From: Prevotella sp.
GTDB lineage: Bacteria; Bacteroidota; Bacteroidia; Bacteroidales; Bacteroidaceae
NCBI GenBank assembly: GCA_017475265.1
Contig: JAFVFY010000096.1
Coordinates: 1-62,840 of the forward strand
Direction of reading: 5' to 3'
Length of the DNA stretch: 62,840 nt
The notes under the pieces were generated by a model, which saw nothing but the letters and a program-made list of their open reading frames with translations, had not been told where the DNA came from and made no database searches. How positions within the stretch are numbered: the first letter of the stretch is position 1; every line of letters starts with the position of its first letter. Below are positions 16,140 to 61,719 of the stretch, one piece after another. The translations under genes were made by a program, and so were the position numbers.

Positions 16140-16164
16140 ATCGTAAATTCGTAAATCGTAAATA
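16131..16164. repeat. 7/8-bp tandem repeat at the rnfC-rnfD junction
   Basis: Units AAATCGT / AAATTCGT. The first unit contains the rnfC stop codon. The same array type lies upstream of nqrA and between nqrC-nqrD and nqrE-nqrF. Confidence 0.8.
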
Positions 16165-24570: not shown

Positions 24571-25308
24571 TTATTTCCCTAGGTAGTTCTTTGCCAGATA
24601 GTCGTTGAATTGGTCTTTGTAGAGGTCTCCCAGGGGCAGGTAGGTGTCTGCGTCGAGGATGATGCGGTTCTTGTTCACTTCCTGAATCTTCTGGAGGTTC
24701 ACGATGTAGGAGCGGTGTATGCGCATGAACTGCTGAGGCGGGAGGTAGTCCTCCATCTTCTTCATGGATAAGAGGGTGATGATGGGTTTCTGGCCTTCGA
24801 GGTGAATCTTCAGGTATTCGCTCATGCCCTCCACATAGCGTATGTCGGCAATGGAGATGCGCACTACGCGGTAGTCGGTCTTGACAAAGATGGTGCCATT
24901 GCTCTGGTCTATAGGACTGCTCTGCTGGGTGGCAGGACTGTTCTGGTGGCGCAGGTTGTACTGCTCCTGCACCTTCATGGCTGCACGCAGGAAGTCGTTC
25001 ATGCCAAAGGGTTTCAGGAGGTAGTCGACGGCGTTCACCTTGTAGCCCTCGATGGCATATTCAGAGTAGGCTGTGGTGAAGACAATGAGCGGAGGAGCAG
25101 CCAACTGTCGCACGAAGTCCATGCCTGAGAGGTCGGGCATGTTGATGTCGCAGAAGATGGCGTCAATGACCTCCTTCTCCATTATCTCACGGGCCTGGAG
25201 GGCACTCTGGCATTGTCCGGCAAGCTCTAGGAAGGGAACCTTGCTGATATATGTGGTGAGCTGGCGAAGGGCCAGGGGTTCGTCGTCGATGGCAAGTACT
25301 TTTATCAT
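24571..25308 (-). CDS. LytTR-family response regulator
   Basis: 245 residues. The receiver domain (1-120) has the acidic pair DDE near the N-terminus, phosphoacceptor Asp in IFCDINMPDLSG, and the conserved Thr/Lys (FTTAYSEYA, DYLLKPF). After a Q/S-rich linker, the LytTR DNA-binding domain (~140-245) contains YVEGMSEYLKIHL and FMRIHRSYIVNL. It is paired with the LytS-like kinase encoded upstream (25357-26577), with a 7-bp repeat array in the 48-bp spacer. Target genes are unknown; no LytTR sites were identified. Confidence 0.93.
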   Translation of the reverse strand: MIKVLAIDDEPLALRQLTTYISKVPFLELAGQCQSALQAREIMEKEVIDAIFCDINMPDLSGMDFVRQLAAPPLIVFTTAYSEYAIEGYKVNAVDYLLKPFGMNDFLRAAMKVQEQYNLRHQNSPATQQSSPIDQSNGTIFVKTDYRVVRISIADIRYVEGMSEYLKIHLEGQKPIITLLSMKKMEDYLPPQQFMRIHRSYIVNLQKIQEVNKNRIILDADTYLPLGDLYKDQFNDYLAKNYLGK

Positions 25309-25311
25309 TAT

Positions 25312-25350
25312 AGATTTGAGGTTTGAGATTTGAGGTTTGAGATTTGAGAT
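25312..25350. repeat. 7-bp tandem repeat between kinase and regulator genes
   Basis: Five to six units of TTTGAGA/TTTGAGG filling the spacer. Confidence 0.8.
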
Positions 25351-26660: not shown

Positions 26661-29633
26661 CTAATGTACGACGCAGAGCAGACGGAAGGGACAGTTGGTG
26701 CAGCGGGTTCGGTCTTGGGTGGGAAGGAAGGGAACGTCAGGTTCGAAGATTTCGCCTATGACCTGCTTGAGGAGAGACATGAACTGGTTGGCGTAGGGGG
26801 TGACGTCGTTGATGTAATCCTTGCCGAACTTCAGAATCGGGTTGTAGTCGTCGGCTCCGGCGTGCTGGATGAAGAGCAGGGCAGGGGAAATGGTTGAACA
26901 TTGACCATTGAACATTGACCGTTGACCATTGACCGTTGACCATTGACCATTGAACATTGAACATTGAGTGTTGACCGTTGAGACGATGATGCTGTAGAGG
27001 AAGGTTTGGAGGTAGTAGTCGCTGTGGTTCTTCAGTTGGTCTTGCTGGAAGATAGCCTCCACACCTGAGAGGGGCGTGGGCATGTTGCTGCCTGTCTTGT
27101 AGTCTGTGACGCGTATTTGCTCGCCGTTGTTGTTCACAATGCGGTCTAGGCGGTCGATGCGGCCGCCGATGGTGAGGGTCAGGGGTTTTGTATCACCCCC
27201 AATCGTAATGGGCATGGTGACGTCGGTCTCCAAGCCAATAATGGTGAAGGGGGCGAGCCGAAGGTCGATGGTGAGCAACTGGCGGAGGTAGTGGATGATG
27301 ACCTCGCGGTTGATGAGCTGGAGGCCGCTGAGGTCAGGGGTCTTGCCTGATTCGAGGTGGAAAAGTTCCTGACGGATGGCCTGGTCGACGGCTATCTCGA
27401 TGTCAATCTTCTTACGTAGCATTTGCTCCAGGTCGGAGGCGAGAATCTGATGACTCTTCTCCATGAGACGGGAATAGATGATGCGGGCGGCCTCGTGGAA
27501 GATGTTTCCGAAGATGCGGTTGTCGATGGTGTCATCGTCGGTCTCGTCGGGTTCGCGGAGATTGTGAACGTAGGTGTAGTAGAACTGAAGGGGACAACGA
27601 AGGTAGCGGTTGACGGCAGAGGGGGTGAGACATTGGCCATTGAAGCGGGCAAGGAGCTGCTGCATCATCTCCTGGGTCTTGTTAACCTGTTGCGGAAGGA
27701 AGGGAATGAACGTCTGCGGGGCCTGGAGCGAGCGGGAAGCGATGTGGTGATGCTGGTCCTCGACCATGAGCTGGATTAAGAAGCGGCTCATCTCGCCAGT
27801 ATGGCCCTCGCTGGTGGCGTTATTATATATTATTGTGACATCGTCGGCACGTTGCAGGAGACGGTGGAAGTAATAGCTGTAGATGGCCACCTTGTGGTCG
27901 GAGGTGGTCAGACCGTATGCCTTGCGAATGGAGTAAGGGATGAACGATGTGTCGTTCACACCCTTGGGGATGTTGCCCTCGTTGGCAGAGAGCAGCAACA
28001 CGTGGCGGAAGTCCAAACAGCGGGTCTCGAGCAGTCCCATTATCTGTAGGCCTTGGGCGGGTTCGCCGTGGAAGGGGATGGTGGTGGCATCCATGAGCTG
28101 GGTGACGAGACGCTGCAAGGTGATGATGTCTACAAGGAGGTCGCCAGCGTTTACGAGGGTTAGCAGACGGTTGAGGAGAGTGTAGGCACGGAAGAGCGAC
28201 TCGGCGTGGATATTGAAGGCTCCTTCTGGTGCCTCTTGGGAGGATTGTCTGGCAACGACGCGAACCACATCGCTCATCCATTCGAGCAAACTGCTCTGAG
28301 TGTCGAGGGGACGGAAGAGAAGGGTGGTGGCCTCGTCGATGCAGAGCTGTGACGGGGTGGGGTAATAGAGCTTCTGATTGTTCAGCTCTTGGTGGAGGTC
28401 GGCTATCTGTGGGGAGAGGTCGGCAATGTAGGGATGACGAAGCAGGGCATTTACCTGACGCAGACGATAACGGTCGCGACTGGGCTGGTAACCTTGGGTG
28501 CGGAGGGCAAAGAGGATGGCTATGAGAGATGCAACGGGAGCCTGGGAGAGAGGGTAGCCTGTGGTGACGTTCACCTGGTCAACACCGTCGGGAAGACAAT
28601 GGATGACGGTGGGAAGAAGCTTCTCGTCGCAGAGCACGATAGCGGTGTCGGGGGAGATTTGAGGGTTGAGGGTTGAGATTTGAGGGTTGAGAGTTGAGGG
28701 TTGAGATTTGAGAGTTGAGGGTTGAGATTTGAGCCATTGGGCGACGTAGCGGGCCTGGATGTTCTCGGTGGGAGCAGAGGCAACGGTAATGTCCTTGGGC
28801 TGGGAGAAACAGTTGTAGATGGTCTCATCCTTACGGTCTAGCTCGTTGGGGAAGAGCTGCAGGTTCTGGGTGATGAACGTTCCTGTCTCGCCCTGTAGAT
28901 AGTAGTCGTCGAAATCCCAATAGAAGCGGGCACGACCTTCACGCTTCAGCCAGGTGAAGAGACGCTGCTCCACTTGCTGGAGGACGTTGAAGCCTACGAA
29001 GACGTAAGACCCTAATTCCTCCTCTGACCTGTCAAGCTTTTCTACTACCTCGCGATAGAGCGCACCCTCGTAGGCCAGTCCCTGTTGGGAGAGCCGGTCG
29101 TTGAAATCGTGGTAGATGTCGGCTATGTGCGACCATAGGCGGAGGAAGCGTTCACGTAGCAGCGTGGTATGTTCAGGCGAGAACGTGGAGAAGAATTTCT
29201 GTAGTGCCTCCTTCTGTTCGTCGGTGAGGTAGTCGATACTGTCCATCTCGTGTAGGTCGCTGAGGTTGGTCAGCACTCGGTCAGCATCGGCCATGCTCTT
29301 GTCCAGGTCGTCGAAGTCGGAGAGGAGCAGCTGTCCCCAGCCGTAGAAATGGTCGAGGGTCTCGTCGAAGCCCGTCATCGCCGTGAAGGAACGGTGAAGC
29401 TCACAGACCAGTTTGATAGGGTCGGCAACGGTTTTGTGGCTCTGCTGACGGAAGAGTTCGCTGATGGTCACGTAGCGAGGACTCCAGATGGGGTGGTCGG
29501 AGAGGCGTGCCAGATGGGCGTTGAGAAAGAGCGACGCACGCTTGTTGGGGAATACCACCGTGAGCTGCGACAGGTCATTGCCGTGCTTGCGAAGCAGGTC
29601 TTCGGCGACGTGTTCAAGGAAAGGTTTCACCAT
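26661..29633 (-). CDS. AddB-like PD-(D/E)XK nuclease of the RecB/AddB type
   Basis: 990 residues. The N-terminal inactive helicase-like region contains LTVVFPNKRASLFLNAHLA and later SANEGNIPKGVNDTSFIPYSIRKAYGL. The C-terminal nuclease domain starts at ~660 (LTPSAVNRYLRCPLQFYYTY, FGNIFHEAARIIY), with catalytic residues in RVTDYKTGS and a terminal cysteine group (CTNCPFRLLC) typical of an Fe-S cluster nuclease. It probably works with an AddA-like helicase in double-strand break repair, but no addA is in the window. Two in-frame 7-bp repeat arrays (26893-26983 and 28655-28733) add low-complexity peptide such as LKSQPSTLNPQIS and MFNGQWSTVNG. Confidence 0.87.
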   Translation of the reverse strand: MVKPFLEHVAEDLLRKHGNDLSQLTVVFPNKRASLFLNAHLARLSDHPIWSPRYVTISELFRQQSHKTVADPIKLVCELHRSFTAMTGFDETLDHFYGWGQLLLSDFDDLDKSMADADRVLTNLSDLHEMDSIDYLTDEQKEALQKFFSTFSPEHTTLLRERFLRLWSHIADIYHDFNDRLSQQGLAYEGALYREVVEKLDRSEEELGSYVFVGFNVLQQVEQRLFTWLKREGRARFYWDFDDYYLQGETGTFITQNLQLFPNELDRKDETIYNCFSQPKDITVASAPTENIQARYVAQWLKSQPSTLKSQPSTLNPQISTLNPQISPDTAIVLCDEKLLPTVIHCLPDGVDQVNVTTGYPLSQAPVASLIAILFALRTQGYQPSRDRYRLRQVNALLRHPYIADLSPQIADLHQELNNQKLYYPTPSQLCIDEATTLLFRPLDTQSSLLEWMSDVVRVVARQSSQEAPEGAFNIHAESLFRAYTLLNRLLTLVNAGDLLVDIITLQRLVTQLMDATTIPFHGEPAQGLQIMGLLETRCLDFRHVLLLSANEGNIPKGVNDTSFIPYSIRKAYGLTTSDHKVAIYSYYFHRLLQRADDVTIIYNNATSEGHTGEMSRFLIQLMVEDQHHHIASRSLQAPQTFIPFLPQQVNKTQEMMQQLLARFNGQCLTPSAVNRYLRCPLQFYYTYVHNLREPDETDDDTIDNRIFGNIFHEAARIIYSRLMEKSHQILASDLEQMLRKKIDIEIAVDQAIRQELFHLESGKTPDLSGLQLINREVIIHYLRQLLTIDLRLAPFTIIGLETDVTMPITIGGDTKPLTLTIGGRIDRLDRIVNNNGEQIRVTDYKTGSNMPTPLSGVEAIFQQDQLKNHSDYYLQTFLYSIIVSTVNTQCSMFNGQWSTVNGQRSMFNGQCSTISPALLFIQHAGADDYNPILKFGKDYINDVTPYANQFMSLLKQVIGEIFEPDVPFLPTQDRTRCTNCPFRLLCVVH
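26893..26983. repeat. in-frame 7-bp tandem repeat, AddB-like gene, distal array
   Basis: About 12 units of TTGACCA/TTGAACA/TTGACCG. Translated on the minus strand as a 7-residue periodic peptide with MFNGQ and STVNG motifs, between the two halves of the nuclease domain. Confidence 0.9.
28655..28733. repeat. in-frame 7-bp tandem repeat, AddB-like gene, proximal array
   Basis: About 11 units of TTTGAGA/GTTGAGG. Translated on the minus strand as LKSQPST / LNPQIST heptapeptides. Confidence 0.9.
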
Positions 29634-29636
29634 TTA

Positions 29637-29746
29637 ACAATAACCAATAAACAATAACCAATAAACAATAACCAAATAAACAATAACCAATAAACAATAA
29701 CCAATGAACAAATAAACAATAAACGATGAACAAATAAGCAATAACC
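29637..29746. repeat. 110-bp array of 7-bp units before the AddB-like gene
   Basis: About 15 units of AATAACC/AATAAAC with occasional 8-bp units. It fills the gap between the PAP2 gene and the AddB-like start. No promoter consensus was seen here, so the AddB-like gene may be read from upstream. Confidence 0.85.
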
Positions 29747-29756
29747 GAATGATGCG

Positions 29757-30731
29757 CTATTCCCGATAGGCCCAGCGGAAGAGGAAGTACATCAGGGTGC
29801 CAACGGCAAGTCCAGCGATGGCATCGATGGCGTAGTGAGCCTGGATGTAGAACGTGGCAAAGAACATCAGCACGGCGAGGGGAATCATGGTGAAGAGCAG
29901 CCGACGGTTGCGTGCCTCACGCGCCAGCCAGAGCACCACCGTGGTGATGCCCACATGACTGCTGGGGAAGGCCGCCGTAGGTCGCTCACCGGCATTATGT
30001 GCTTCTACCAGAAGGCGATAGAACAGGCCGTCCTTCCATCCTGGCAAGGGCAGCATCTGGTCCTGGTTCAAGACGTCGAAGGGCAGCCGGTCGAAATAGT
30101 CGCCCAGATGGGGAAACTGCCCCTGGGCTATGAGGTCGGTGCCCACGGCCTGGAAGTAGAACTGAGGCCCTGCTACGGGCAGGAGCACAAAGATGACGTA
30201 GAAGAGGAAGAACGAGGCAAGGATGATGAACGCCGAGCGCAGGAACCGTTCGTAGCGGAAGAAGAAATAGAACAGCAGCACGGCGGCAATCATCGGATAG
30301 TAGCTGACATAGCCCAGCGTCAGCAGTTCGCTGACAAAGGGTGAGGCATAGGTATGGCAGAACGTCAAGGCTGGCTGGAAACCAAAGAGCGACTGCTCGG
30401 CCTGCGCAAAGAAGGCATCGAGGTTGGGGAAGATGCGGTTTAGCTCGAATGTGTCGGGATACCACCAGCCAAGGAAAATCATCTGCCCCGCAACACGTCC
30501 GAACAGCGTCAGGCGGCAGGGGAACAACCTGTAGGCTCCCCACAGTGCCAGCGTCATCACCAAGGCCTGTCCACGTCCAAAGAGCATCTGCACAGGGTCG
30601 TGCAGACGGCTGTAGCTGGCTACGATGAAGATGGTGGTGAGCGCGGCGTAGAATACCATAGCCCACTCCAGCCACAGCAGCCCACGGATGGGCTTTGCCT
30701 CCAGTTTCAGCAGTTGTCTTAGCAGTTTCAT
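29757..30731 (-). CDS. PAP2-family membrane phosphatase / inositolphosphotransferase-like
   Basis: 324 residues with about six membrane helices. The PAP2 motifs are GERPTAAFPSSHVG (motif 2 with catalytic His) and YIQAHYAIDAIAG (motif 3 His/Asp). The layout resembles the PAP2_3/Aur1-Ipt1 subgroup that transfers phosphoinositol to ceramide; Bacteroidales make such sphingolipids, so this is a possible role, but a plain lipid phosphatase cannot be excluded. The start is directly adjacent to the pectate lyase stop (0 bp), so the two genes are probably translated from one mRNA. Confidence 0.85.
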   Translation of the reverse strand: MKLLRQLLKLEAKPIRGLLWLEWAMVFYAALTTIFIVASYSRLHDPVQMLFGRGQALVMTLALWGAYRLFPCRLTLFGRVAGQMIFLGWWYPDTFELNRIFPNLDAFFAQAEQSLFGFQPALTFCHTYASPFVSELLTLGYVSYYPMIAAVLLFYFFFRYERFLRSAFIILASFFLFYVIFVLLPVAGPQFYFQAVGTDLIAQGQFPHLGDYFDRLPFDVLNQDQMLPLPGWKDGLFYRLLVEAHNAGERPTAAFPSSHVGITTVVLWLAREARNRRLLFTMIPLAVLMFFATFYIQAHYAIDAIAGLAVGTLMYFLFRWAYRE

Positions 30732-35572: not shown

Positions 35573-37132
35573 ATGAAAAGGATAGTATTCATATACTTTA
35601 TTTTGGTCATGGCCTTCTGCACGGCTACGGCCCAACAAGAAACCGTGGGACAAATCAGTATCACGGTGGACTCGACGCTGAACCCCCAGCGGAAAGTGAC
35701 GGCACATCTGAAGATGGACGGTTACGATGGTGCCATCGGCATCAAACTACGAGGCAACAGCTCGCTGGGCTTCAACCAGAAGAAGTACACCTTTGAGCTG
35801 CGTGACGAGCAGGGCAAGGAGGTAGAGGCTCCGCTGATGGGCATGCCCGCCCACAGTAAGTGGGTGCTGCTGGCTCCCTATAATGACGTCTCGGCAGTAC
35901 GCGACCCGCTGGCCTTCCAGCTGTGGCGCGACATGGGGCATTGGGGACCACGCACGAGGATGGCCGAACTGACGATGAACGGCGACTATTGTGGTATCTA
36001 TATTCTCTCGGAAGCTATCAAGCGAGGCAAAGACCGCGTGGATGTCGCGAAGTTGAAAAAGAGCGATGTCAAGGGACGCGACGTGACGGGAGGCTACCTG
36101 TTGCGCATCGACACCTTCGGCGAAGACGAGGCGACCTTCACCTCGAAGGTTCCAGGCATCGGCGAGGGCAATATGTCAACTCAGGTCATCTGGTCGTGCT
36201 TCTATCCAAAGAAGAAGAAACTGCAGCCAGAACAGTTTGACTACATCCGTAACTACGTAGACACCGTGGAGCAAGTGATTCAGTCAGACTATTTTGCCGA
36301 CCCAGAGCGCGGCTATGCCCGCTATATTGACGTGCCCTCGTTTGTAGACTATTTCATCCACACAGAGCTGAGCCTCAATGCCGACGGCTACAAGCGCAGC
36401 GCCTACTTCTACAAGGAGAAGCAGAACGCAGACGGTACGGGCGGAAAACTCGTCGCTGGCCCTGTCTGGGACTACAACCTGGCCTACGGCAACGCCAACT
36501 TCGCCAATGCCGACAATATAGAGGCGTGGAACTTCGAAGGGGCAAGCAATAACCCCACGCCCGCACTTTGGCAGCGGCTGTTGCAAGACCCCGCATTCCG
36601 AAAAGCGGTGAAGGTGCGCTACAAGACCCTGCGCAAAAGCGTGCTGAGCAACAAGGCCATTAATGCCTACATCGACCGCCACGCCCAGCTGCTGGCTCCT
36701 TGCCTCGACCGCCATTTCGGAAAATATCCCGAATTGCTCGTTTCTGAGGAAGAGAAGAAAAACCTGCCAAAGCCCCAGCCCTTCGGCACTTTCCCACCGA
36801 TGGGAGAAGGTTTTCCGCCGATGGGTGGTGACTTTCCGCAAATGGGAGAAGGCTTCCCGCCGATGGGAGAAGGCTTCCCGCCGATGGGCGATTTCGGAGG
36901 GTTTGGTGGTGGCTTCAATGCCGCGAGCATGTTTGCAGCCTATCGTGTCAGTTCCTACGACGAGGAAATCCAGATTCTGAAGAAATGGCTTGCCGACCGC
37001 CTGTCGTTCCTCGACGCAAACATCAAACGGTTTGACAAGGACTGGCAGCCGCGCATACAGGAGCTCAAGGAAATCAAGATGCCGCAGTTCAATGGCGGCT
37101 TCCCCTTTCCTTTCCCTTCTTCAGGACAATAA
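35573..37132 (+). CDS. secreted CotH-family protein with Pro-Met-Gly repeats
   Basis: 519 residues; signal peptide (1-22). The CotH domain runs from ~40 to 390: KLRGNSSLGFNQKKYTFELR, KWVLLAPYNDVSAVRDPLAF, GYLLRIDTFGEDEATF, PSFVDYFIHTELSLNADGYK and AGPVWDYNLAYGNANFAN. CotH proteins are atypical protein kinases or surface proteins in spores and cellulosome-bearing bacteria; in Bacteroidales they are secreted and their role is unknown. Residues ~407-442 are a run of FPPMGEG-type heptapeptides encoded by 21-bp repeats (36789-36894). It faces the GH3 gene tail to tail, 10 bp apart. Confidence 0.88.
   Translation: MKRIVFIYFILVMAFCTATAQQETVGQISITVDSTLNPQRKVTAHLKMDGYDGAIGIKLRGNSSLGFNQKKYTFELRDEQGKEVEAPLMGMPAHSKWVLLAPYNDVSAVRDPLAFQLWRDMGHWGPRTRMAELTMNGDYCGIYILSEAIKRGKDRVDVAKLKKSDVKGRDVTGGYLLRIDTFGEDEATFTSKVPGIGEGNMSTQVIWSCFYPKKKKLQPEQFDYIRNYVDTVEQVIQSDYFADPERGYARYIDVPSFVDYFIHTELSLNADGYKRSAYFYKEKQNADGTGGKLVAGPVWDYNLAYGNANFANADNIEAWNFEGASNNPTPALWQRLLQDPAFRKAVKVRYKTLRKSVLSNKAINAYIDRHAQLLAPCLDRHFGKYPELLVSEEEKKNLPKPQPFGTFPPMGEGFPPMGGDFPQMGEGFPPMGEGFPPMGDFGGFGGGFNAASMFAAYRVSSYDEEIQILKKWLADRLSFLDANIKRFDKDWQPRIQELKEIKMPQFNGGFPFPFPSSGQ
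36789..36894 (+). repeat. 21-bp direct repeats in the CotH gene
   Basis: Five units related to TTCCCGCCGATGGGAGAAGG, encoding FPPMGEG heptapeptides; two adjacent units are identical, so copy number may vary. Confidence 0.85.
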
Positions 37133-37142
37133 CTGCAGGGAC

Positions 37143-39563
37143 TTACTTTATGTCTTCTATTGTTGAGAAATAATGGTCGCGCAACGGTTTCTGAACAGGC
37201 GCGCCATTCAGGGTGATTGTTTCCTGTAACTTGATATCGGCCGAGGAACTGCCAATCTTGACAAGATATTGGCCGGGTAGTACGTTCCATTGGCGTTGCC
37301 CCTCGTGGCTGTAGAAACCGAACTGGTCTGTATACAACTTCACATTGACAGTCTTGCTCTCGCCGGGCTGTAGGGTCAGACGGGCAAAACCTTGCAGCTG
37401 GATAGGACGGATTTGCTGGTCAGCGCTAGTGGGGGATATATATATCTGTGCTACCTCGTCGGCAGCCATCTCACCTGTGTTCTTCACCTCAAACGTCAGG
37501 TTGATGCCCTCGTCCGTCGTCGAGACCTGTGGAGTGCTGGCATACTCGCCAGCCACTTTCAGGTTGCTATATTCGAAAGTGGTGAAGCTCAGACCATAGC
37601 CGAAGGGCCAGGATAATTTACAATTTGGCGATTTACAATTTACCATTTCTGAGGGGTAGTTGTAGCAGATGGGTTCGTCAATCTCAGTATTGGGATAGCT
37701 GACAGAGAGCTTGGCAGATGGCGACACCTTGCCAAAGAGGATGTCAGCCACGGCATTGCCGCCCTCCTCACCTGGATACCAGGCATGAATAACAGCTGCA
37801 CATTTCTCAGCCAAACCGGAAACCACCAAAGCCCTGCCTCCGAACATCACCAGCACCACTGGTTTGCCTGTCTTGATGAGTTCCTCCACAAACTGCTCCT
37901 GCTTGCCGGGCAGACGAAGGCCCTGACGGTCGCGGTTCTCACCGCAGAGCATCACGTTCTCACCAACTGCAGCCACAATCACATCGGCATGCTTGGCCAT
38001 TGCAAGTGCTTCCGCCTTGTCGGCCTTCTCGCCAGAATCGACTTTACGGTGCAGGATGTCATACTCCCAGGCACGTTCGTCGCCCATCTCGCCGTACTTC
38101 GTCTCAATCTCTTCCGTCCAATCACAACCACGGGAATACATCACGTTCACGCCCTCTGGCTTACGTCCGTTCATGCCCTCCTGCAACTTGACGATATGCG
38201 GGTTGTCACGGTCGGCCACATCCTCTACCTTCTTCCAGAAGTATGACATAGCTGGATAGGTATAGTCGCCGCACATGGCCCAGATGGAGTTGGCATTTGG
38301 ACCTGTGAGCAGAATGTTGACCATTGAAGATTGACCATTGACCATTGAAGGTCTCAGTGGCAGAATGCCATTGTTCTCCAACAGAACGATTGACTGACTG
38401 GCGATGTCGTATGCCGTCTGGCGTTCCTCGGGACTATCAAGCTTTACCTCCTCCTTACTGTAGAGGTAGGCATCCTTGTCGAAGAGTCCTGCACGGAACT
38501 TATGGCGCAGCACGTCCTTCACAGCACGTTCCAGCGTCTCAGGTTTTACCAGTCCCTTGTCTATAGCCTCCTGCAAGAACTGATAGTTGTCGCCGTGGGG
38601 GAAGTCGACATCATTGCCACCATTGATGGCTGCGGCAGCCTTCTGTACAGCATCGTCCAAGTCGGGTAATTGGTCGATGGCAGTATAGTCGCTCACTACC
38701 ATGCCGTCGAAGCCTAGATACCCATGAAGGATGTCCTGCAATATCTCGCTGTTTGCCACACATTTTGTTCCATGTACGGCATGATAGCCAGGCATGACGC
38801 ACTTGCTGCCAGAGATACGTATCATCGCCTCGTGGGGCAGCAGTATTTCCTCCATCAGTTCTTTTTCGTCGGCATCGCCACCTCCGCCATAGCCCAGATA
38901 GTGCTTCGAGCAGGCACCAACGCCTTTCTTCAAGTCGCCCTGCTGCAGACCGTCCACGAAGGCCACGCCCATTACTGCCGACAGGTAGCCGTCCTCGCCA
39001 TACGACTCCTCCAGACGGTTGAATGAAGGCGTGCGACAAACATCAACCATAGGCGACAGCGCCAGGATTCCACCCATCTTGCGCATGACGGTACTCGTCT
39101 GACGGGTCTTCAGTTCTGCCAGCTCTGGATTGAACGAACAGGCCTGTCCTATCTGTTGCGGATAGATGGTTGCCCCCAAGGTGTTCACACCTGAGAGCAC
39201 CTCTTCGTGGAGCAGGGCTGGAATGCCGTTGGGGGTATGATGAATGAGCCAGTCCTGTATGGCGGCAGCACGGTCGCGCAATTCGTTAGGGTCCCTAGGC
39301 TTCTGCATGCAGAACTGCGAGAAGTGACCGATGCCGTAGGGTATCAGTTCTTGGCACTTAGCCGTGTCCAACTTGCCCTGCTCGTTGAACAGGACGTCCA
39401 TGTACATGCTCTTCAACTGGGCGATGCGCTCTTCCTGCGACATCCTACCGTAAAGTTCGTCAACTTGTTGTTCCATGTCTGTAGCTGTGTTACATCCGGT
39501 TGCCAACATCATCACTCCTGTCATCAGCAGGCCGGTCATCTTTTTACAAATTTGTTTGTCCAT
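37143..39563 (-). CDS. GH3 beta-glucosidase / beta-xylosidase lipoprotein
   Basis: 806 residues. A lipobox (LATGC, Cys24) follows the signal sequence, so it is membrane-anchored. GH3 blocks are GIPALLHEEVLSG, GDLKKGVGACSKHYLGYGGG, the nucleophile in GFDGMVVSDYTAI, VLLENNGILPLRP, and the C-terminal fibronectin-like domain (TFEVKNTGEMAADEVAQIYI). It removes terminal glucose or xylose from oligosaccharides; the nearby xylanases favour xylo-oligomers, but sugar specificity cannot be read. Two short in-frame repeats (38316-38350 and 37614-37648) encode MVNGQSSMVN and MVNCKSPNCKL in place of otherwise conserved spacing. Its start overlaps the DUF4105 gene by 28 bp. Confidence 0.9.
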   Translation of the reverse strand: MDKQICKKMTGLLMTGVMMLATGCNTATDMEQQVDELYGRMSQEERIAQLKSMYMDVLFNEQGKLDTAKCQELIPYGIGHFSQFCMQKPRDPNELRDRAAAIQDWLIHHTPNGIPALLHEEVLSGVNTLGATIYPQQIGQACSFNPELAELKTRQTSTVMRKMGGILALSPMVDVCRTPSFNRLEESYGEDGYLSAVMGVAFVDGLQQGDLKKGVGACSKHYLGYGGGGDADEKELMEEILLPHEAMIRISGSKCVMPGYHAVHGTKCVANSEILQDILHGYLGFDGMVVSDYTAIDQLPDLDDAVQKAAAAINGGNDVDFPHGDNYQFLQEAIDKGLVKPETLERAVKDVLRHKFRAGLFDKDAYLYSKEEVKLDSPEERQTAYDIASQSIVLLENNGILPLRPSMVNGQSSMVNILLTGPNANSIWAMCGDYTYPAMSYFWKKVEDVADRDNPHIVKLQEGMNGRKPEGVNVMYSRGCDWTEEIETKYGEMGDERAWEYDILHRKVDSGEKADKAEALAMAKHADVIVAAVGENVMLCGENRDRQGLRLPGKQEQFVEELIKTGKPVVLVMFGGRALVVSGLAEKCAAVIHAWYPGEEGGNAVADILFGKVSPSAKLSVSYPNTEIDEPICYNYPSEMVNCKSPNCKLSWPFGYGLSFTTFEYSNLKVAGEYASTPQVSTTDEGINLTFEVKNTGEMAADEVAQIYISPTSADQQIRPIQLQGFARLTLQPGESKTVNVKLYTDQFGFYSHEGQRQWNVLPGQYLVKIGSSSADIKLQETITLNGAPVQKPLRDHYFSTIEDIK
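37614..37648. repeat. in-frame short repeat in the GH3 gene (ATTTACA units)
   Basis: Repeats of GATTTACAATTT type, encoding VNCKSPNCKL just before WPFGYGLSFT. Confidence 0.65.
38316..38350. repeat. in-frame 7-bp tandem repeat in the GH3 gene
   Basis: Units TTGACCA / TTGAAGA; encodes SMVNGQSSMVN just after VLLENNGILPLRP. Confidence 0.8.
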
Positions 39564-40903: not shown

Positions 40904-40938
40904 AAATTGTAAATCGTAAATCCGTAAATTGTAAATCA
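40904..40938. repeat. 7/8-bp tandem repeat in the nqrA leader
   Basis: Units AAATTGT / AAATCGT / AAATCCGT between the promoter and the nqrA start codon. Confidence 0.8.
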
Positions 40939-40940
40939 AT

Positions 40941-42293
40941 ATGATGTCAAATGTAATTAAGCTACGTAAAGGCTTGGAAATTCACCTGCAAGGGAAGGCC
41001 GAAGAAACGAAGCTGACGCTGAAGAGCAACGGGCACTACGCTTTGGTGCCTGATGACTTTGAAGGTGTCACTCCGAAGGTGGTCGTTCTTGAGGGTGACA
41101 ATGTCAAGGCCGGCGATGCCTTGTTCGTGAACAAGTTGCATCCGGAGGTGCGCTTCGCCTCACCCGTCAGCGGACGTGTGATGACGGTGGAGCGTGGCGA
41201 GCGACGCAAGGTGCTCTGCATACGTGTGGACGCCGATGCTGAGCAGCAGTATGTCGACTTCGGCAAGAAAGACCCCATGAAGATGGACGGTAAGGCTGTT
41301 ATCGATGCGCTGCTGGAAGCTGGTATCTTTGGTTATATCAATCAGTTGCCTTATGCTATCTCTACAGACCCTGAGAGCAAGCCTAAGGCAATTTTCGTGT
41401 CCGCACTACGTGACAAGCCCCTTGCTGCCAGCTTCGATTATGAGGTGAAAGGGCAGGAGCAGGACTTCGTCACCGGACTCGCAGCCCTCTCGAAGATTGC
41501 CAAGACCTATGTGGGTATCGGCAAGGATTCTCAAATCTCAAATCTCAACGCTCAAATCTCAAACCTCGTTGTTTTCGACGGCCCTTGCCCGGCAGGCAAT
41601 GTGGGCGTGCAGGTGAACAACATCGACCCGGTGAACAAGGGTGAGGTGGTGTGGACTATCGGCGACCCGACGGTGGTGCTCTTCATCGGTCGCCTCTTCA
41701 ATACGGGCAGGGTGAACCTGACCCGCACCGTGGCCCTCTGCGGCAGTGAGGTGAAGAAACCCTGCTATGTGGACATGCTCGTGGGTCAGGAACTGAATAC
41801 GCTTGTCTCGAACAGCTATGAGCCTGGTCACAACGTCCGAATCATCAATGGTAACGTGCTGACAGGGCGTAAGACTACGAAGGACGGATTCCTCGGTGCC
41901 CACTCGTCGGAGATTACCATCATCCCTGAGGGTGACGATGCTGACGAGATGCTGGGTTGGATTATGCCGCGCTTCAAGCAGTTCTCTGTCAGCCGCAGCT
42001 ACTTCTCATGGCTCTGTGGAAAGAAGGAATATGCGCTTGATGCCCGTGTAAAGGGTGGTGAGCGACATATCATCATGAGTGGCGAGTATGACCGTGTGCT
42101 GCCTATGGACATCTACGGCGAGTATCTCATCAAGGCCATCATTACTGGTGACATCGACCGCCAGGAGCAGCTCGGCATCTATGAGGTGGCTCCCGAGGAC
42201 TTTGCCTTGGCCGAGTTCGTTGACTCTTCGAAACTCGAACTGCAGAAAATCGTTCGTGAAGGACTGAATATCTTACGTAAAGAAAACGCATAA
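40941..42293 (+). CDS. nqrA: Na+-translocating NADH:quinone reductase subunit A
   Basis: 450 residues (a second ATG immediately follows the first). Blocks IKLRKGLEIHLQGK, VTPKVVVLEGDNVKAGDALF, FASPVSGRVMTVERGERRKV, PCPAGNVGVQVNNIDPVNKG and RSYFSWLCGKKEYALDAR match NqrA. It is the peripheral quinone-side subunit of the Na+ pump. At ~residues 197-209 the peptide SQISNLNAQISNL comes from an in-frame 7-bp repeat (41529-41567) inserted between the GIGKD segment and the VVFDGPCPAG block. First gene of a complete nqrABCDEF set with its own promoter. Confidence 0.96.
   Translation: MMSNVIKLRKGLEIHLQGKAEETKLTLKSNGHYALVPDDFEGVTPKVVVLEGDNVKAGDALFVNKLHPEVRFASPVSGRVMTVERGERRKVLCIRVDADAEQQYVDFGKKDPMKMDGKAVIDALLEAGIFGYINQLPYAISTDPESKPKAIFVSALRDKPLAASFDYEVKGQEQDFVTGLAALSKIAKTYVGIGKDSQISNLNAQISNLVVFDGPCPAGNVGVQVNNIDPVNKGEVVWTIGDPTVVLFIGRLFNTGRVNLTRTVALCGSEVKKPCYVDMLVGQELNTLVSNSYEPGHNVRIINGNVLTGRKTTKDGFLGAHSSEITIIPEGDDADEMLGWIMPRFKQFSVSRSYFSWLCGKKEYALDARVKGGERHIIMSGEYDRVLPMDIYGEYLIKAIITGDIDRQEQLGIYEVAPEDFALAEFVDSSKLELQKIVREGLNILRKENA
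41529..41567. repeat. in-frame 7-bp tandem repeat in nqrA
   Basis: Units CTCAAAT / CTCAACG; encodes SQISNLNAQISNL in NqrA. Confidence 0.85.
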
Positions 42294-44205: not shown

Positions 44206-44210
44206 TCAAT

Positions 44211-44241
44211 AGTAAATCGTAAATTCGTAAATCGTAAATTA
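44211..44241. repeat. 7/8-bp tandem repeat between nqrC and nqrD
   Basis: Units GTAAATC / GTAAATTC; ends just before the nqrD start. Confidence 0.8.
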
Positions 44242-44864: not shown

Positions 44865-44866
44865 TT

Positions 44867-44993
44867 AGCCCCCTAAGTTAGGGGGTTGGGGGTCTGAACA
44901 AGCGCAGATACCCTTTTACCCGAGGTATAACTAACAAGTTAAACGGTCTGATAAACGCTTGTTCAGACCCCCAACCCCCTAACTTAGGGGGCT
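44867..44993. repeat. 127-bp inverted-repeat element, copy 2 (nqrD-nqrE)
   Basis: Perfect 38-bp terminal inverted repeats (44867-44904 and 44956-44993), beginning AGCCCCCTAAGTTAGGGGG. The centre shares GGTCTGATAAACG with copy 1 at 17163-17280, but the middle ~40 bp differ. It ends 5 bp before the nqrE start, so the hairpin may sequester the ribosome-binding region. Confidence 0.93.
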
Positions 44994-44998
44994 CGAAT

Positions 44999-45625
44999 AT
45001 GGAACACGCAATAAGTCTATTCTTTAGGTCGATATTCGTCGACAATATGATCTTCGCGTTCTTCCTCGGCATGTGCTCCTACCTTGCCGTGTCGAAGACG
45101 GTGAAGACCTCCTTGGGGCTTGGTCTGGCCGTGACCTTCGTGCTCACCGTCACCGTGCCCGTGAACTATCTCTTGCAGACCAAGGTATTAGGCGACGGTT
45201 GCTTGGTGGAAGGCGTTGACCTGAGCTACCTCTCGTTCATCCTCTTTATCGGTGTCATCGCTGGTATGGTTCAGCTCGTTGAGATGACGGTCGAGAAATA
45301 CTCGCCGTCGCTCTATGCCGCCCTTGGTATCTTCCTGCCCCTTATCGCCGTGAACTGCGCCATCATGGGTGCCTCGCTCTTCATGCAGCAGCGCATACTG
45401 ATGGAACCCGACAACACGCAGGCCATCACCTCCGTCTGGGATGCCATCGTCTACGGCTTCGGCTCTGGTATCGGTTGGACGCTCGCTATCGTGTCGCTCG
45501 GTGCCATCCGCGAGAAGATGCAGTACTGTGACGTGCCCAAGCCCCTCCAGGGCCTCGGCATTACGTTCATCACTGTGGGCCTCATGGCTATGGCAATGAT
45601 GTGTTTCTCTGGACTGAACATATAA
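44999..45625 (+). CDS. nqrE: Na+-translocating NADH:quinone reductase subunit E
   Basis: 208 residues with six membrane helices. [40 protein letters not shown] and [20 protein letters not shown] match NqrE. Paralogue of RnfA. Its start lies 5 bp after the hairpin element, which could lower its expression relative to nqrD unless translation is coupled. Confidence 0.96.
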
Positions 45626-45658
45626 ATCGTAAATAGTAAATTCGTAAATCGTAAATTA
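45624..45658. repeat. 7/8-bp tandem repeat between nqrE and nqrF
   Basis: Units AAATCGT / AAATAGT / AAATTCGT; overlaps the nqrE stop codon. Confidence 0.8.
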
Positions 45659-45663
45659 CGTAT

Positions 45664-50200: not shown

Positions 50201-52855
50201 ACACCCACCACTCATTGGGACTACGGCTCATGGGGAAGCCTGAAATGGAGCGGCTATCTGTATGGTGACAGGTCTTATGTCTCGTCGTTGGACTTCAGCA
50301 AGTTCGACCATGATTTATATCCCGCACGATGGCTGCCAAGACGCTTCAATAGAAGAGCGAGATTACGTGGTCTAGCCGCTGGTGCCGTGATGGTGGAGGA
50401 AGAACCGATGATGCTGGCCAAGTCTGTCGAATATGAAGAGTCTGCTAGCCTACAGGAGGTGGCTGTGAAAGGCAATACGGCTGACATGGCGGCTGTGGAA
50501 GAGGAAGCTGATAGCGAGGAGAAGGTTGAGGTGCGTGAGAATCTGGACGAGACGGCGTTCTTCATGCCCCAGCTTACTACCGATGCAAGCGGCCATGTGG
50601 CCCTGCGCTTCACCTTGCCCGAATGTCTCACCACATGGCGCTTTATGGGTGCCGCCCATACGAAGAACATGTTCTGTGGCATGATTGACGGCGAGGCCGT
50701 GGCTCGTAAGGAAGTCATGGTGCAACCTAACATGCCGCGCTTCCTGCGTCATGGCGACCAGGCAGTCATCACTACCCGCATCTTCAACACCACCGATAAA
50801 GAAATCAATGGAACGGCTTGTCTACAACTCCTCGACCCGGAGAGCGAGAGTGTGGTCTACGAGAAGAAGTTGGAGGTCAGTGTGAAGGCCGACAACACAT
50901 CTTCGGCATCGTTCGACATCGACTGCAAACAACTGCCCAGCAGTCTCTCCTTGCTCATCGCCCGTGTAAGCTTCAAAGCCGAGGGATTCAGCGACGGTGA
51001 GCAGCATTACCTCCCGTTGCTGCCTGATATGGAGCACGTCATCCGCACGCTCCCCATCACACAGCATCAGCCGGGAACGTTGAACATCGACCTCAAGAGC
51101 CTCGTGCCCGATGGCGTTACCGACCCGAAGCTTACCTTAGAATACACCAACAACCCTGCTTGGTTGATGATTCAGGCGCTACCCGCTATTGGTCATCCCC
51201 ATGATGACTGCGCTATCTGTCAGGCTGCGTCGCTCTATGCCAACAGCATCGGTATGAGCATCATCGCCCAGAACCCCCATGCCAAGGAAATTTTTGAGCA
51301 ATGGGAACAGGAAGACGGTACGGAGAAGTCGCTCATGAGCAACCTTGCCAAGAATCAGGAACTGAAGGACCTTGTGCTCGAGGAGACACCTTGGGTGGCC
51401 GATGCCGACCGTGAGCAGGAGCAGAAGGAACGGCTGGCCGACTTCTTCGACTCCGGCATGATGAACCAACGTATCGACCAGGCTCTGGAGAAGATAAAGA
51501 AGCTGCAGAACCGCGACGGCTCATGGAGCTGGTGGCCCGACATGCGTGGCTCGTGGTACATGACCGTAAGCATCAGCCAGATGCTTACGAGGCTTCAAGT
51601 CCTGGGGGCTGTACAATCCTCAGATCTCAATTCTCAAATCTCAAATCTCCAAACAAAGGCCTTCAAGTTCATGGGCAACGAGATTATCGACATCGTAAAG
51701 GAGATGAAGAGGATGGAGAAAGAAGGCTTCGAGATGTCGTTCCCCAATCAGACGGCACTCGACTGGCTCTACATCTGCGCCGTCGACGGTCGTGAGCTGC
51801 CCCGCAAGGTACAGGATGCCAACGACTACCTCCTTGCCTTGCTGAAGAAGGAAATCAAGAACCAGAGCATCTATGGAAAGGCGATGACTGCCGTCGTGTT
51901 CTCCGTCAAGGAGCCTAAGCTGGCGAAGAAGTACGTGAAGAGCCTGACGGAGTACACCGTATATCGCGAGGACGTGGGTCGTTACTACGACACCCCGCGT
52001 GCCCTCTATAGCTGGCGTGACTACCGCATACCTACTCAGGTAGCCGCTATCGAGGCCCTGCAGCGTCTCACTCCCGAAGACACGCAGACCATCGACGAGA
52101 TGCTTCGCTGGCTCCTTCAGGAGAAGCGTACACAGGCTTGGGACACGCCGCTCTCTACTATTGATGCCATCTATGCCTTCCTCAACGGACGTCCACAGGT
52201 GCTGCAGCCACAGACTGAGTCCACCTTCGCCCTCGACGGTAAGTCCTTCGAGACTCCGAAGGCCACGGCAGGACTGGGTTACATCAAGACTGAACTAGAT
52301 ATATCCTCTCACTCCTCACCTCTCACCACCCATCCCTCGCTGGAAATCGCCAAGACCAGTCAAGGAACTTCCTGGGGTGCTGTCTATGCTCAGTTCATGC
52401 AAACCACCACAGAGATTGAGAGCCAGGCCAGTGGTATATCCGTTACGCGTGAAGTAATGAAGAAGGTTGATGATCAAATCTCAAATCTCAAATCTCAACC
52501 CTCAAATCTCAAGGTGGGTGACCGTGTTACCGTCCGAATCACCATCGTTGCCGACCGTGACTATGACTTTGTTCAGGTCATCGACAAGCGTGCTGCCTGT
52601 CTGGAGCCTGTAAACCAGAAGAGCGGCTACCATTGGGGACGTGGCAGCTATTACGAGGGTTACTACTGCACACCTCGCGATTGCACCACGAACTTCTACT
52701 ACGACCGTCTGGCGAAGGGCAAACATGTGATTGAGACCGAGTACTATGTAGACCGTCCCGGACGCTACGACACCGGCTCCTGCAACGTCAGCTGCGCCTA
52801 CTCCCCAGAGTTCCGTGGCTCGGCTGCGGCCACTACCATCAACGTTGCGAAGTGA
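47234..52855 (+). CDS. very large secreted alpha-2-macroglobulin-family protein, thioester motif absent
   Basis: 1873 residues with a signal peptide (1-20) and no lipobox. The N-terminal ~280 residues are helical. MG domains follow (SVYTDRQMYRPGQTVHAAAI is the MG2 landmark), then KYTVKARCKHA and PGQQEEWTLRIVNPDG. The A2M core is ETAFFMPQLTTDASGHVALR. In the thiol-ester domain the expected CxEQ is replaced by DDCAICQAASLYANSIG, so no thioester can form. Bacterial relatives are thought to trap foreign proteases; without thioester the trap would act non-covalently. Three short repeats (51618-51650, 52303-52332, 52474-52512) are translated within the C-terminal third. Confidence 0.9.
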   Translation: MKKTLLTFTLLLLIPMFTFGQNTIDELWKKVAEAVDDDLPQTEQKLLREIAELAERDGDYATLLKAELQEARSLCSVSPDSLEPAVERLKVREQEAKDSVLRAVYCTVLGYVYKTNSMLDEDRYEQIAEEYYTRALHHPDLLAATKTKKYSTIINMGGDSSFFDDDLLSVIGYEARRFDVLRDYYASSGNRTAELLSTLQLFKQQRTNEMESLDSSPYLQRLDSLIERFADLDVCGEAAIERFSFMERQTRATAEQKMAYLDKAISRWGNWKRIDELRNKQKELTALQFHANMERKVITTGQWNDVNLTDMRGITAMTMRVYSVKCDGNFPYNPDNKYDYDDHFVKILTPQPELTQTLELGVHKDYELFDSLLRLAPLPVGAYMIELESTPGTRISRQLLFVSNVRVIVQPMPDRKIRMVAVDAITGQPLKGAHLEVTSNTGYYKDSKTYNLTTDEQGECVYSRTEKERDCSIFATYGDDKYCPRFSEDSNFSYYAGSSDGHSGSVYTDRQMYRPGQTVHAAAILYRRYETINHAVDAGVKVTMELYDANNKVVASKEVVTDDYGTCAADFKLPTSGLAGKYTVKARCKHADSKYESTYYESFRVEEYKRPTFEVEIPRVETAYADGDTVDVVGTARTYSGVKVQGAKVKYKVMRRRAFWWFSYYSYWNQMVIGRDSDDKVLAEGETVTGDDGTFTVGVPIEVPKTRYPMFYNFVVTADVTDQAGETHAGSVSLPMGNKPLAFSADLPDKMLREEGGSVIFTLRNASGNELTEQVKYRFDGGNWLTTSTNEEVDIPELKSGRHTLDAVCRGETIQQKFTVFSLDDTTPAEETDDWFYLSNSQFPRDGKPVTFQLGASDPDLHIVYAIYAGNKVIDSGYKDMSNALINLKLTYEEEYGNGLLLSYGWVKNGKVHSHQASISRPLPDTRLKLEWETFRDRLTPGQQEEWTLRIVNPDGTPADAQLMATLYDKSLDQLEAHKWSIGASLWLPTPTTHWDYGSWGSLKWSGYLYGDRSYVSSLDFSKFDHDLYPARWLPRRFNRRARLRGLAAGAVMVEEEPMMLAKSVEYEESASLQEVAVKGNTADMAAVEEEADSEEKVEVRENLDETAFFMPQLTTDASGHVALRFTLPECLTTWRFMGAAHTKNMFCGMIDGEAVARKEVMVQPNMPRFLRHGDQAVITTRIFNTTDKEINGTACLQLLDPESESVVYEKKLEVSVKADNTSSASFDIDCKQLPSSLSLLIARVSFKAEGFSDGEQHYLPLLPDMEHVIRTLPITQHQPGTLNIDLKSLVPDGVTDPKLTLEYTNNPAWLMIQALPAIGHPHDDCAICQAASLYANSIGMSIIAQNPHAKEIFEQWEQEDGTEKSLMSNLAKNQELKDLVLEETPWVADADREQEQKERLADFFDSGMMNQRIDQALEKIKKLQNRDGSWSWWPDMRGSWYMTVSISQMLTRLQVLGAVQSSDLNSQISNLQTKAFKFMGNEIIDIVKEMKRMEKEGFEMSFPNQTALDWLYICAVDGRELPRKVQDANDYLLALLKKEIKNQSIYGKAMTAVVFSVKEPKLAKKYVKSLTEYTVYREDVGRYYDTPRALYSWRDYRIPTQVAAIEALQRLTPEDTQTIDEMLRWLLQEKRTQAWDTPLSTIDAIYAFLNGRPQVLQPQTESTFALDGKSFETPKATAGLGYIKTELDISSHSSPLTTHPSLEIAKTSQGTSWGAVYAQFMQTTTEIESQASGISVTREVMKKVDDQISNLKSQPSNLKVGDRVTVRITIVADRDYDFVQVIDKRAACLEPVNQKSGYHWGRGSYYEGYYCTPRDCTTNFYYDRLAKGKHVIETEYYVDRPGRYDTGSCNVSCAYSPEFRGSAAATTINVAK
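51618..51650. repeat. in-frame 7-bp tandem repeat in the A2M gene, first
   Basis: Units CTCAAAT / CTCAATT; encodes SDLNSQISNLQ. Confidence 0.8.
52303..52332. repeat. in-frame short repeat in the A2M gene, second
   Basis: Units CTCACTC / CTCACCT / CTCACCA; encodes SSHSSPLTTH. Confidence 0.65.
52474..52512. repeat. in-frame 7-bp tandem repeat in the A2M gene, third
   Basis: Units TCAAATC, five to six copies; encodes QISNLKSQPSNLK. Confidence 0.85.
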
Positions 52856-61686: not shown

Positions 61687-61719
61687 ATTTACGATTTACG
61701 AATTTACGATTTACGATTT
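61687..61719. repeat. 7/8-bp tandem repeat between infC and rpmI
   Basis: Units TTTACGA / TTTACGAA directly after the infC stop; the reverse complement of the AAATCGT units in the rnf and nqr operons. Confidence 0.8.

Follow-up and report, generated by a model that had tools for sequence, protein, structure and literature searches.

Heptamer arrays in and before an AddB-like nuclease gene of a Prevotella genome are ordinary members of a fast-changing, genome-wide set of 7-bp repeats

Results

An AddB-like gene with two internal arrays and one upstream array

The window analysed in this study, a stretch of 62,840 nucleotides from a gut-type Prevotella genome, carries a gene for an AddB-like nuclease whose reading frame runs uninterrupted across two heptamer arrays, with a third array in the spacer before the gene (Table 1). 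The PDDEXK_1 domain match covers residues 669-987 of the protein, and residues C680, C978, C981, C987, D844 and K846 are invariant in 40 aligned sequences. We take the four cysteines to be the ligands of an Fe-S cluster. The presence of the nuclease domain and the four conserved cysteines agrees with AddB membership. Since the scores stayed under the cut-offs of the NCBIfam AddB equivalogs (36.9 vs 486.5 and 34.7 vs 903.7 bits), the gene is called AddB-like (addB for short). A search for sequence relatives in the PDB returned none at E up to 0.1.

All three arrays listed in the initial annotation were recovered with borders shifted by a few bases. The translations of array 1, STVNTQCSMFNGQWSTVNGQRSMFNGQCST, and array 2, LKSQPSTLKSQPSTLNPQISTLNPQ, display the 7-residue period that had been described. 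Array 3 starts 4 nt upstream of the addB ATG and occupies the greater part of the 123 nt that separate addB from the PAP2-family gene. Because arrays 1 and 2 have a fixed TTGA core in common, their earlier description, together with array 3, as three independent repeat families is overstated. The conservation of this core was given no weight as an argument, since its null model disregards that duplicated units inherit differences.

Table 1. Genes, heptamer arrays and leader elements of the window
Feature	Positions	Strand	Remarks
AddB-like PD-(D/E)XK nuclease gene	26661..29633	-	990 aa, intact ORF; PDDEXK_1 E 1.2e-31
Array 1	26894..26981	-	TTGACCA/TTGAACA (sense TGGTCAA), ~12.6 heptamers, residues 885-914, length-variable loop
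Array 2	28659..28733	-	TTGAGGG/TTGAGAT/TTGAGAG (sense CTCAANN), ~11 heptamers, residues 301-325, length-variable loop
Array 3	29638..29744	.	CAATAAC/CAATAAA (sense TTATTGG/TTATTGT), ~15 heptamers with indels, spacer before addB
PAP2-family gene, upstream neighbour of addB	29757..30731	-	ORF and domain match; stop 12 nt from array 3
Sister array AGATTTG/AGGTTTG	25312..25350	.	Spacer before LytTR response-regulator gene (24571-25308, -)
Sister array, TTGACCA unit as in array 1	38317..38348	-	Inside another ORF
Sister coding array CTCAAAT	41529..41567	+	Inside NqrA-like gene; unrelated coding sequence in closest relative
Sister array CTCAAAT	51619..51652	+	Inside ORF
Sister array CTCAAAT/CTCAACC	52474..52512	+	Inside ORF
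AAATCGT leader element	44208..44240	+	Before Rnf-Nqr membrane-subunit gene (44244); absent from closest relative
AAATCGT leader element	45623..45662	+	Before NqrF-like gene (45664); absent from closest relative

Excess of period 7 in the window and the genome

The window contains 14 period-7 segments, array 3 being entered as two; none of 10 dinucleotide-preserving shuffles produced any. No segment was found for periods 3-6, and 3 each for periods 8 and 9. A genome sample of 721 kb, much of it from contigs chosen for holding the heptamer words, comprised 121 period-7 arrays vs 7 arrays of periods 2-6 together, 12 of period 8 and 39 of period 9. The main units of the 121 arrays fall into 34 AT-rich forms. 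Period 9 is likewise common in this Prevotella genome. When contigs were taken by number, 39 period-7 arrays were counted in G000 (periods 2-6, 2; period 9, 14) and 62 in the closest relative (2 and 4, respectively). At 79 named loci, a set replacing an earlier one of 115 loci that held six loci from this genome as well as duplicates, 115 period-7 arrays were found vs 11 of periods 2-6 and 18 of period 9. The repeat process is specific for 7 bp, and the dominance of period 7 in the genome sample and inside the addB coding sequence supports the heptamer-specific amplification mechanism that had been suggested from the addB arrays.

The array density of 151-168 per Mb extrapolates to about 700-800 arrays in the genome. 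The three arrays in and before addB, which the initial annotation had singled out, are ordinary members of this fast-changing, genome-wide heptamer set. CTCAANN triples were absent from 160 out of 398 genomes of the genus and reached their maximum, 696, in this genome. The control for this count, the same pattern read backwards, is itself heptamer-spaced and hence weak. A further search pattern is likewise weak, being tuned to the words of this genome. Two Prevotella records that carry no MAG label, HUN156 and MN60, contain 6 and 4 arrays in about 22.7 kb.

The same unit words turn up at unrelated loci, and the word set of the closest relative is partly different; the top units were not alike between the two genomes compared. 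The probability that two arrays have a common main unit was 0.064 in G000 and 0.052 in G398; genomic heptamers gave 0.001 and letter-shuffled units 0.003-0.004. Thus, words are reused across arrays. In a test for block copying, common mixed 21-mers numbered 120 in G000 (shuffle mean 87, maximum 121) and 116 in G398 (mean 94, maximum 127), which falls short of proving such copying. A TCA/TGA core was present in 92 of 121 main units in one set, in 129 of 190 in a second and in 74 of 115 in a third, ~2.3-fold more than expected from letter shuffling.

Turnover of arrays between related species

Over 101 addB genes, period 7 accounted for 31 in-gene arrays and period 9 for 2, with 0 for any other period within 3-12. 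Although period 9 would preserve the frame for free inside coding sequence, it is the minor class there. The arrays occupy recurrent loops with differing units in different species; the same loops are used again and again. The alignment of orthologues proposed earlier placed a heptamer array with different units in the array 1 loop of the closest relative, which is devoid of arrays 2 and 3, its addB spacer measuring 2 nt. None of the 100 other addB genes had an array above threshold in the array 2 loop. As judged by eye, no aligned orthologue keeps the residues of these arrays; the refuting case named initially, residues kept in a sequence lacking the DNA periodicity, thus did not arise.

Where an orthologue of the closest relative spanned the array, which was so for 19 distinct coding sites, reading of the alignments revealed the same array at 1, a different or related short repeat at 4 and none at 14. 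By hand count, the net length change was a multiple of 21 nt at 3 of the 19 sites, one of these being zero. The argument that three units make 21 bp and keep the frame is therefore incomplete. Relative to the closest relative, the net difference was +30 nt for array 1 and +45 nt for array 2 because native sequence was replaced at the array edges. As the closest relative is not an ancestor, most gains and losses are left unpolarised: the presence of arrays is species-specific, and gain is polarised for addB only. The comparison covers one genome per species.

A seed test was carried out on all rows, i.e. on 36 of 38 sites, the other 2 having partner sites of 2 nt. The partner contained a piece matching the array at 9 sites (~2 expected) and none above chance at 27. 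Among the 9 positive rows, two show a single orthologous array from either side and one is an array present in both genomes. This test replaces a hand-picked one (1 positive row among 17 chosen from the 38), which was discarded because the omitted rows held most related pieces. The full test weakened the case for copying.

Frame and stop filter on coding arrays

Of 64 arrays in the sampled loci that were flanked on both sides by a single ORF, 60 were in frame. Arrays inside ORFs were stop-free predominantly in the sense direction: in a set of 51, 37 were stop-free in sense only, 0 in antisense only, 1 in both and 13 in neither, and in a set of 76 these numbers were 42, 2, 2 and 30. Coding arrays thus mostly pass a frame and stop filter and look like tolerated loop inserts, in line with one of the two possibilities raised initially. 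AddB activity is presumably unaltered by them. In the annotation of Prevotella proteins, it should be considered that heptapeptide inserts such as LNSQLST, LKSQPST or FNGQWST can be DNA-level repeats and not domains. The arrays also serve as a natural insertion data set for those loops of a repair nuclease that tolerate 10-15 additional residues.

Discussion

Origin of the arrays

We slightly favor a genome-wide, 7-bp-specific repeat system of fast turnover in this Prevotella, which reuses words already in the genome. Arrays would arise at permissive places, namely protein loops and spacers ahead of start codons, and would be built mainly from a limited, genome-specific heptamer vocabulary, often replacing native sequence. 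Selection may retain those coding arrays that restore the frame and contain no stop in sense, resulting in heptapeptide inserts that would leave the invariant nuclease and cysteine residues of AddB untouched. The generating step most likely is polymerase slippage together with template switching onto pre-existing arrays, probably in gap repair or replication restart. The copying of arrays between loci and the reason for the 7-nt step are inferred. That a template-directed copying process stepping by 7 nt writes the genome's own heptamer words into breaks or gaps that lie at unrelated sites and mostly lack a seed, each Prevotella species rewriting loops and leaders in its own dialect, is a tentative and rather doubtful extension. 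For it, the constrained TCA/TGA core of the words would point to a dedicated enzyme or a rule of priming.

Several candidate causes were rejected, and the search for a machinery, which covered RVT_1 and MutS proteins, found none. MutS1 loss does not apply, as a match to the mutS1 model was present in 24 of 24 genomes, 23 of them over the cut-off and G173 below. The crude association with a third MutS-like protein was strong: among genomes at least 90% complete, an index of at least 5 was found in 14 of 85 with this protein and 61 of 98 lacking it (Fisher 2.8e-10; presence at E < 1e-50, counts transcribed by hand). It failed tree correction, as PGLS on the addB tree with 50 named genomes gave a slope of -0.24 (s.e. 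0.19, p 0.22). Loss of this protein as the cause was rejected, and the protein is a lead only.

Ordinary local slippage, in which chance 7-bp duplications expand in place, the polymerase favors 7-nt slips and common words reflect sequence bias and common descent, is a possible though doubtful alternative. It would have to explain a reuse of words 12-60 times above two nulls, the 27 of 36 sites devoid of a related piece above chance, and loops that hold different arrays in different species. On the other hand, the AAATTGT array at L130:5248 is ~3 units off its orthologue, as ordinary slippage would give, and a related piece does exist at 9 of 36 sites. The available parts of PMC4679880 and PMC4692102 moreover summarise Mrazek 2007, according to which heptamers form the commonest class of long SSRs in most genomes, with the idea of a 7-nt polymerase contact. 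A dispersed mobile element, either a MITE or one copied by reverse transcription, that carries the arrays appears very unlikely: identical words do occur at many unrelated loci, but the AATGGTC and AAACAAT families, as printed, have flanks that look unrelated, array length and unit order vary, and RVT_1 was not found in the array-rich genomes G097, G229 (99% complete), G207, G143 and G398, the last three being incomplete. A reverse transcriptase as array source was rejected on this RVT_1 result.

Two further alternatives assign a function to the addB arrays. In a phase-variable contingency locus of the neuO kind, gain or loss of one heptamer would frameshift AddB and switch it off. Such a role seems improbable in the extreme. 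Seven is not a multiple of 3, and AAGACTC repeats act in this way in the neuO coding sequence, but in the accessible part of that report 42 of 64 neuO genomes are OFF (PMC13001214), compared with 60 of 64 arrays in frame here, and the imperfect units of the addB arrays should damp slippage. Array 3 may alternatively serve as a translation leader for addB and not as filler, as suggested for the TAACTGA repeats of Beggiatoaceae, which we consider unlikely. It adjoins the addB ATG; co-directional intergenic arrays lie at most 25 nt from the next ATG in 23 of 35 and 38 of 55 cases (simple gene caller); GGTTATT heptamers of like orientation precede addB in L110 and L114; and leaders of the AAATCGT class are bound to start codons. 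However, short spacers put arrays near an ATG anyway, the spacer of the closest relative is minimal, and 43 of 79 addB genes overlap the preceding ORF by 4 nt.

Comparison with known heptamer repeats

An excess of heptamers is already known in other genomes. The STRR sequences of cyanobacteria are dispersed heptamer arrays with consensus heptamers such as CCCCAGT. Neither such consensus heptamers nor TAACTGA occurred in the list of 34 main units or in the lists of 25 top units for each genome. The likeness in kind to STRR that had been pointed out earlier holds, and it extends to other heptameric long SSRs. The GGGAATC/GGGGATT repeats of Xanthomonas and Nostoc consist of fixed, G-rich units (PMC4692102, available part). 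As far as these sources go, both they and STRR resemble our arrays in being dispersed over both strands, mostly intergenic and sometimes in genes, whereas the words of this genome are AT-rich, comprise 34 main forms and mostly differ between sister species at compared sites.

According to the accessible portion of PMC4679880, TAACTGA direct repeats precede start codons in Beggiatoaceae, some Cyanobacteria and five Bacteroidetes, with a suggested translational role. Array 3 and the AAATCGT leaders likewise place heptamers a few nt ahead of a start codon, and the fixed orientation is a common trait too. The leader unit found here, in contrast, is AAATCGT with one fixed 8-bp unit; the TAACTGA system fits this leader element, whereas its fit to array 3 is loose. 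The neuO repeats of an E. coli K1 prophage lie in coding sequence and give a full-length product only at multiples of 3 (PMC13001214, in part). The addB arrays share the position of heptamers in frame within coding sequence, but frequent out-of-frame states were not found among the sampled arrays and addB is intact. Furthermore, the neuO array is located at the 5'-end and switches by slippage, whereas those of addB have imperfect units and lie internally, at loops.

The closest counterpart is the heptameric class of LSSR described by Mrazek and colleagues (2007), in which, in the available parts of PMC4679880 and PMC4692102, heptamers are the most abundant long class with a patchy distribution over lineages. 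The Prevotella arrays are alike in that tandem 7-bp runs are far above chance, 7 is the dominant unit length and the occurrence among lineages is patchy. As far as these sources show, accounts of the preference for 7-bp repeats rest mainly on one fixed word per genome. Prevotella, in contrast, has many heptamers per genome, mixed within arrays and often in genes, with a genome-specific vocabulary. Two related species with alignable flanks, in which 18 of 19 compared coding sites differ, many words are in use and a frame and stop filter is inherent, could allow the birth, copying and loss of such arrays to be tracked site by site.

Genome-wide abundance of heptamer arrays

The heptamer arrays inside and before the AddB-like gene are real; 14 period-7 segments were detected in the window versus none in ten dinucleotide shuffles. 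The initial annotation regarded them as repeat families of one gene, similar in kind to the STRR sequences of cyanobacteria, which are previously described heptamer repeats. This was right in kind but too local, as the three arrays belong to a heptamer system that extends over the whole genome. In a 721-kb sample of the genome holding the window (G000; 4.75 Mb, 135 contigs, 99% complete, the window being contig 128), consisting partly of contigs chosen as known carriers of one of the words, 121 arrays of period 7, 12 of period 8 and 39 of period 9 were found, and periods 2-6 together contributed 7. Contigs taken by number (258 kb) contained 39 period-7 arrays (151 per Mb) versus 2 of periods 2-6 and 14 of period 9. 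The exact word TTGACCATTGAACATTGA of array 1 occurs 22 times in G000.

At least one CTCAANN triple was present in 238 of 398 genomes of the genus, with the maximum of 696 in G000. Outside the genus, in a pattern comparison with 246 other Bacteroidota, words of this kind were scarcer: a fourfold TTGANNN pattern, biased toward the words of G000, gave 784 matches in G000 versus 74 in the top one of the others. A missing word does not imply missing arrays, since genome G117 has no CTCAANN triple, yet three heptamer arrays in 20 kb; two further genomes (G016, G024) had none in the 20 kb examined of each. The 79 named loci of relatives contained 115 arrays of period 7, 23 of period 8, 18 of period 9 and 11 of periods 2-6. 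Other repeats of the window include longer tandem repeats and a palindromic dispersed repeat separating two co-directional genes, which has more than 10 full or partial matching places in the closest relative, many on both strands.

Features of the window and of one locus of genome G016
Feature	Position	Strand	Remark
AddB-like ORF	26661-29633	-	PD-(D/E)XK nuclease domain
Array 1	26894-26981		in frame in addB
Array 2	28659-28733		in frame in addB
Array 3	29638-29744		spacer before the addB ATG
Leader element copy	16131-16163		all copies mostly 2-9 nt before ATG
Leader element copy, variant	40904-40937
Leader element copy	44208-44240
Leader element copy	45623-45662
Leader element copy	61687-61719		only an 18-codon frame downstream
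Palindromic repeat, ~130 bp	44864-44993
Tandem repeat, 21 bp	36791-36888
Tandem repeat, 33 bp	58553-58655
Third MutS-like protein	L262:1011-2915	-	genome G016

Arrays in the AddB-like gene and its relatives

The name AddB-like was chosen because the score of the ORF falls under the NCBIfam AddB cut-offs. Named records with relatives are chiefly from rumen and gut Prevotella, and the closest one (L036, 78% identity over the best segment) belongs to the MAG RGIG9954 from yak reticulum. Four cysteines are invariant across 40 aligned sequences, among which no invariant position lies within L301-T330 or Y880-P917. When 101 aligned genes including that of the window were scanned at the DNA level for all periods from 3 to 12, 31 arrays of period 7 and 2 of period 9 were found and none of any other period; 16 genes carried at least one period-7 array. 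The arrays cluster at few loops (window residues ~196-211, 248, 301-325, 408-467, 644-668, 723-731, 807-821 and 885-914), and their words differ from species to species. At residues 885-914, TGGTCAA words in the window correspond to TCAATCT and TCGGAAT words in L036, ACATCTG-like words in L110 and L112, and TCACCCA words in L103; at residues 301-325 the window's gene alone has an above-threshold array.

At the position of array 3, the closest relative has just TT separating the stop of the upstream PAP2-family gene from the addB ATG. Since L037, the other relative with an upstream PAP2 gene, has a 21-nt spacer, and a 4-nt overlap with the upstream ORF is seen in 43 of 79 addB genes, array 3 would most simply represent a gain. 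GGTTATT heptamer leaders that match array 3 in word type and orientation directly precede addB in L110 and L114, although L110 is distant on the addB tree.

Reading frame and stop codons

Among arrays lying well inside ORFs by simple ORF-based gene calls, 37 of 51 in G000 were stop-free in the sense orientation only, none in antisense only, 1 in both and 13 in neither; the corresponding numbers for 76 arrays of the closest relative G398, the genome of L036, were 42, 2, 2 and 30. A CTCAANN-type word is read in all three frames per 21 nt and is stop-free in one orientation only, which accounts for the heptapeptide inserts. Heptamer arrays might also act as phase switches in the manner of neuO, for which 42 of 64 genomes are OFF according to an excerpt of PMC13001214. 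In contrast, 60 of the 64 arrays whose two flanks match one ORF elsewhere are in frame, and one of the 4 exceptions is the leader at position 16131 of the window, between two genes. This argues against phase switching.

Turnover between close species and source of the words

The 1.15 Mb sampled of G398, which is probably one genome with G343 as pattern counts are identical, contained 190 period-7 arrays with a vocabulary partly unlike that of G000 (AACTCTC 29, AAGAGTG 20 and AAATGAG 14 versus AAATCTC 21, AACTCTC 15, AAATCGT 9 and AATGGTC 9). Both flanks were found in this sample for 22 of 107 G000 arrays with enough flank, and for 16 of 171 in the reverse direction. Spanning orthologues at the protein level existed for 13 of 65 and 8 of 100 in-ORF arrays. 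By our own reading of the alignments, these 21 rows represent 19 distinct sites. One (L145:4695) has the same array in both genomes; at 4 (addB 885-914, L183:10538, L135:17059, L124:13415) the partner contains a short repeat, either different or related, and at 14 it contains none. The net length change was a multiple of 21 nt at 3 sites only, one of these being zero. Native sequence was frequently replaced beyond simple interruption; around the array in the window's NqrA-like gene, 50 nt stand against 65 nt of unrelated coding sequence in the relative.

Arrays could have grown from local seeds or have reused words already existing in the genome. A first seed test on 17 hand-picked, hence biased, rows found a matching piece in the partner for 1. 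In the full test of 36 of 38 rows (two partner sites were too short), a piece matching the array (P < 0.05) was present at 9 sites versus ~2 expected and missing at 27; one of the 9 is an array common to both genomes, and two are the two sides of a single orthologous AAATTGT array. The relative thus has a seed at a minority of the compared sites and none at most. Two G000 arrays have a common main unit with a probability of 0.064, whereas random genomic heptamers give 0.001 and letter-shuffled units 0.003. The printed flanks show no apparent relationship in the AATGGTC and AAACAAT families. Together, these observations favour reuse of existing genomic words over local seed expansion at most sites. 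A copying step between loci may be involved; the relative, however, is not the ancestor. GTAAC precedes 6 of 9 AAATCGT arrays. Most words contain TCA/TGA (92 of 121 in G000, 129 of 190 in G398, 74 of 115 in the named loci), and GTA, CTA and GGA are avoided in main units compared with letter-shuffled units.

As a possible genome-level cause of the patchy distribution, reverse transcriptase (RVT_1) could be traced in none of five array-rich genomes, of which three are incomplete. A mutS1-model match was present in 24 of 24 genomes checked, exceeding the cut-off in 23. A third MutS-like ATPase (PF00488), with a hydrophobic N-terminus as judged by eye, was found in 113 of 398 genomes (E below 1e-50), a count including a fragment in G081. 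Carriers have fewer arrays than non-carriers; the association was not significant after correction for the addB tree (p 0.22, n=50). Absence of this protein as a correlate of array richness is a lead, not a result.

A leader element at start codons

The AAATCGT word also forms a leader element, (AAATCGT)2-AAATTCGT-AAATCGT-AAAT, with the core AAATTCGTAAATCGTAAAT. Among 27 genomes, the exact core occurred 34 times in G000, 18 times in six others and not in 20. By our own count, an ATG follows 1-12 nt after the core at 23 distinct places in G000 and in 18 of 18 cases elsewhere. Of 36 leader rows in the loci read (two loci listed twice), 29 had an ATG within 25 nt that opens an ORF of 60 or more codons. 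Genes behind the element in the window are of the NqrB/RnfD and Rnf-Nqr membrane-subunit families and nqrF-like, nqrA is preceded by a relative of the element, and in G000 as a whole it stands ahead of Nqr/Rnf-family genes and others. Of three window leaders checked, the closest relative lacks two and keeps one with point changes; the element is partly species-specific. At L143 of G000, the partner of L252:5055-5088, GGGGAGTGAAA-type 10-11-bp repeats are followed by inverted copies, and G398 has an AAATCGT leader array there.

Comparison with known heptamer systems

Among the matches listed from the open-licence literature, none was a paper on such arrays in Prevotella. Heptamer excess, the idea of a polymerase contact, GGGAATC repeats and TAACTGA leaders have already been published, according to excerpts of PMC4692102 and PMC4679880. 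Compared with the systems as described in these excerpts, the one reported here differs in its rich lineage-specific vocabulary, its frequent location in genes and the turnover of its arrays from one close species to another.
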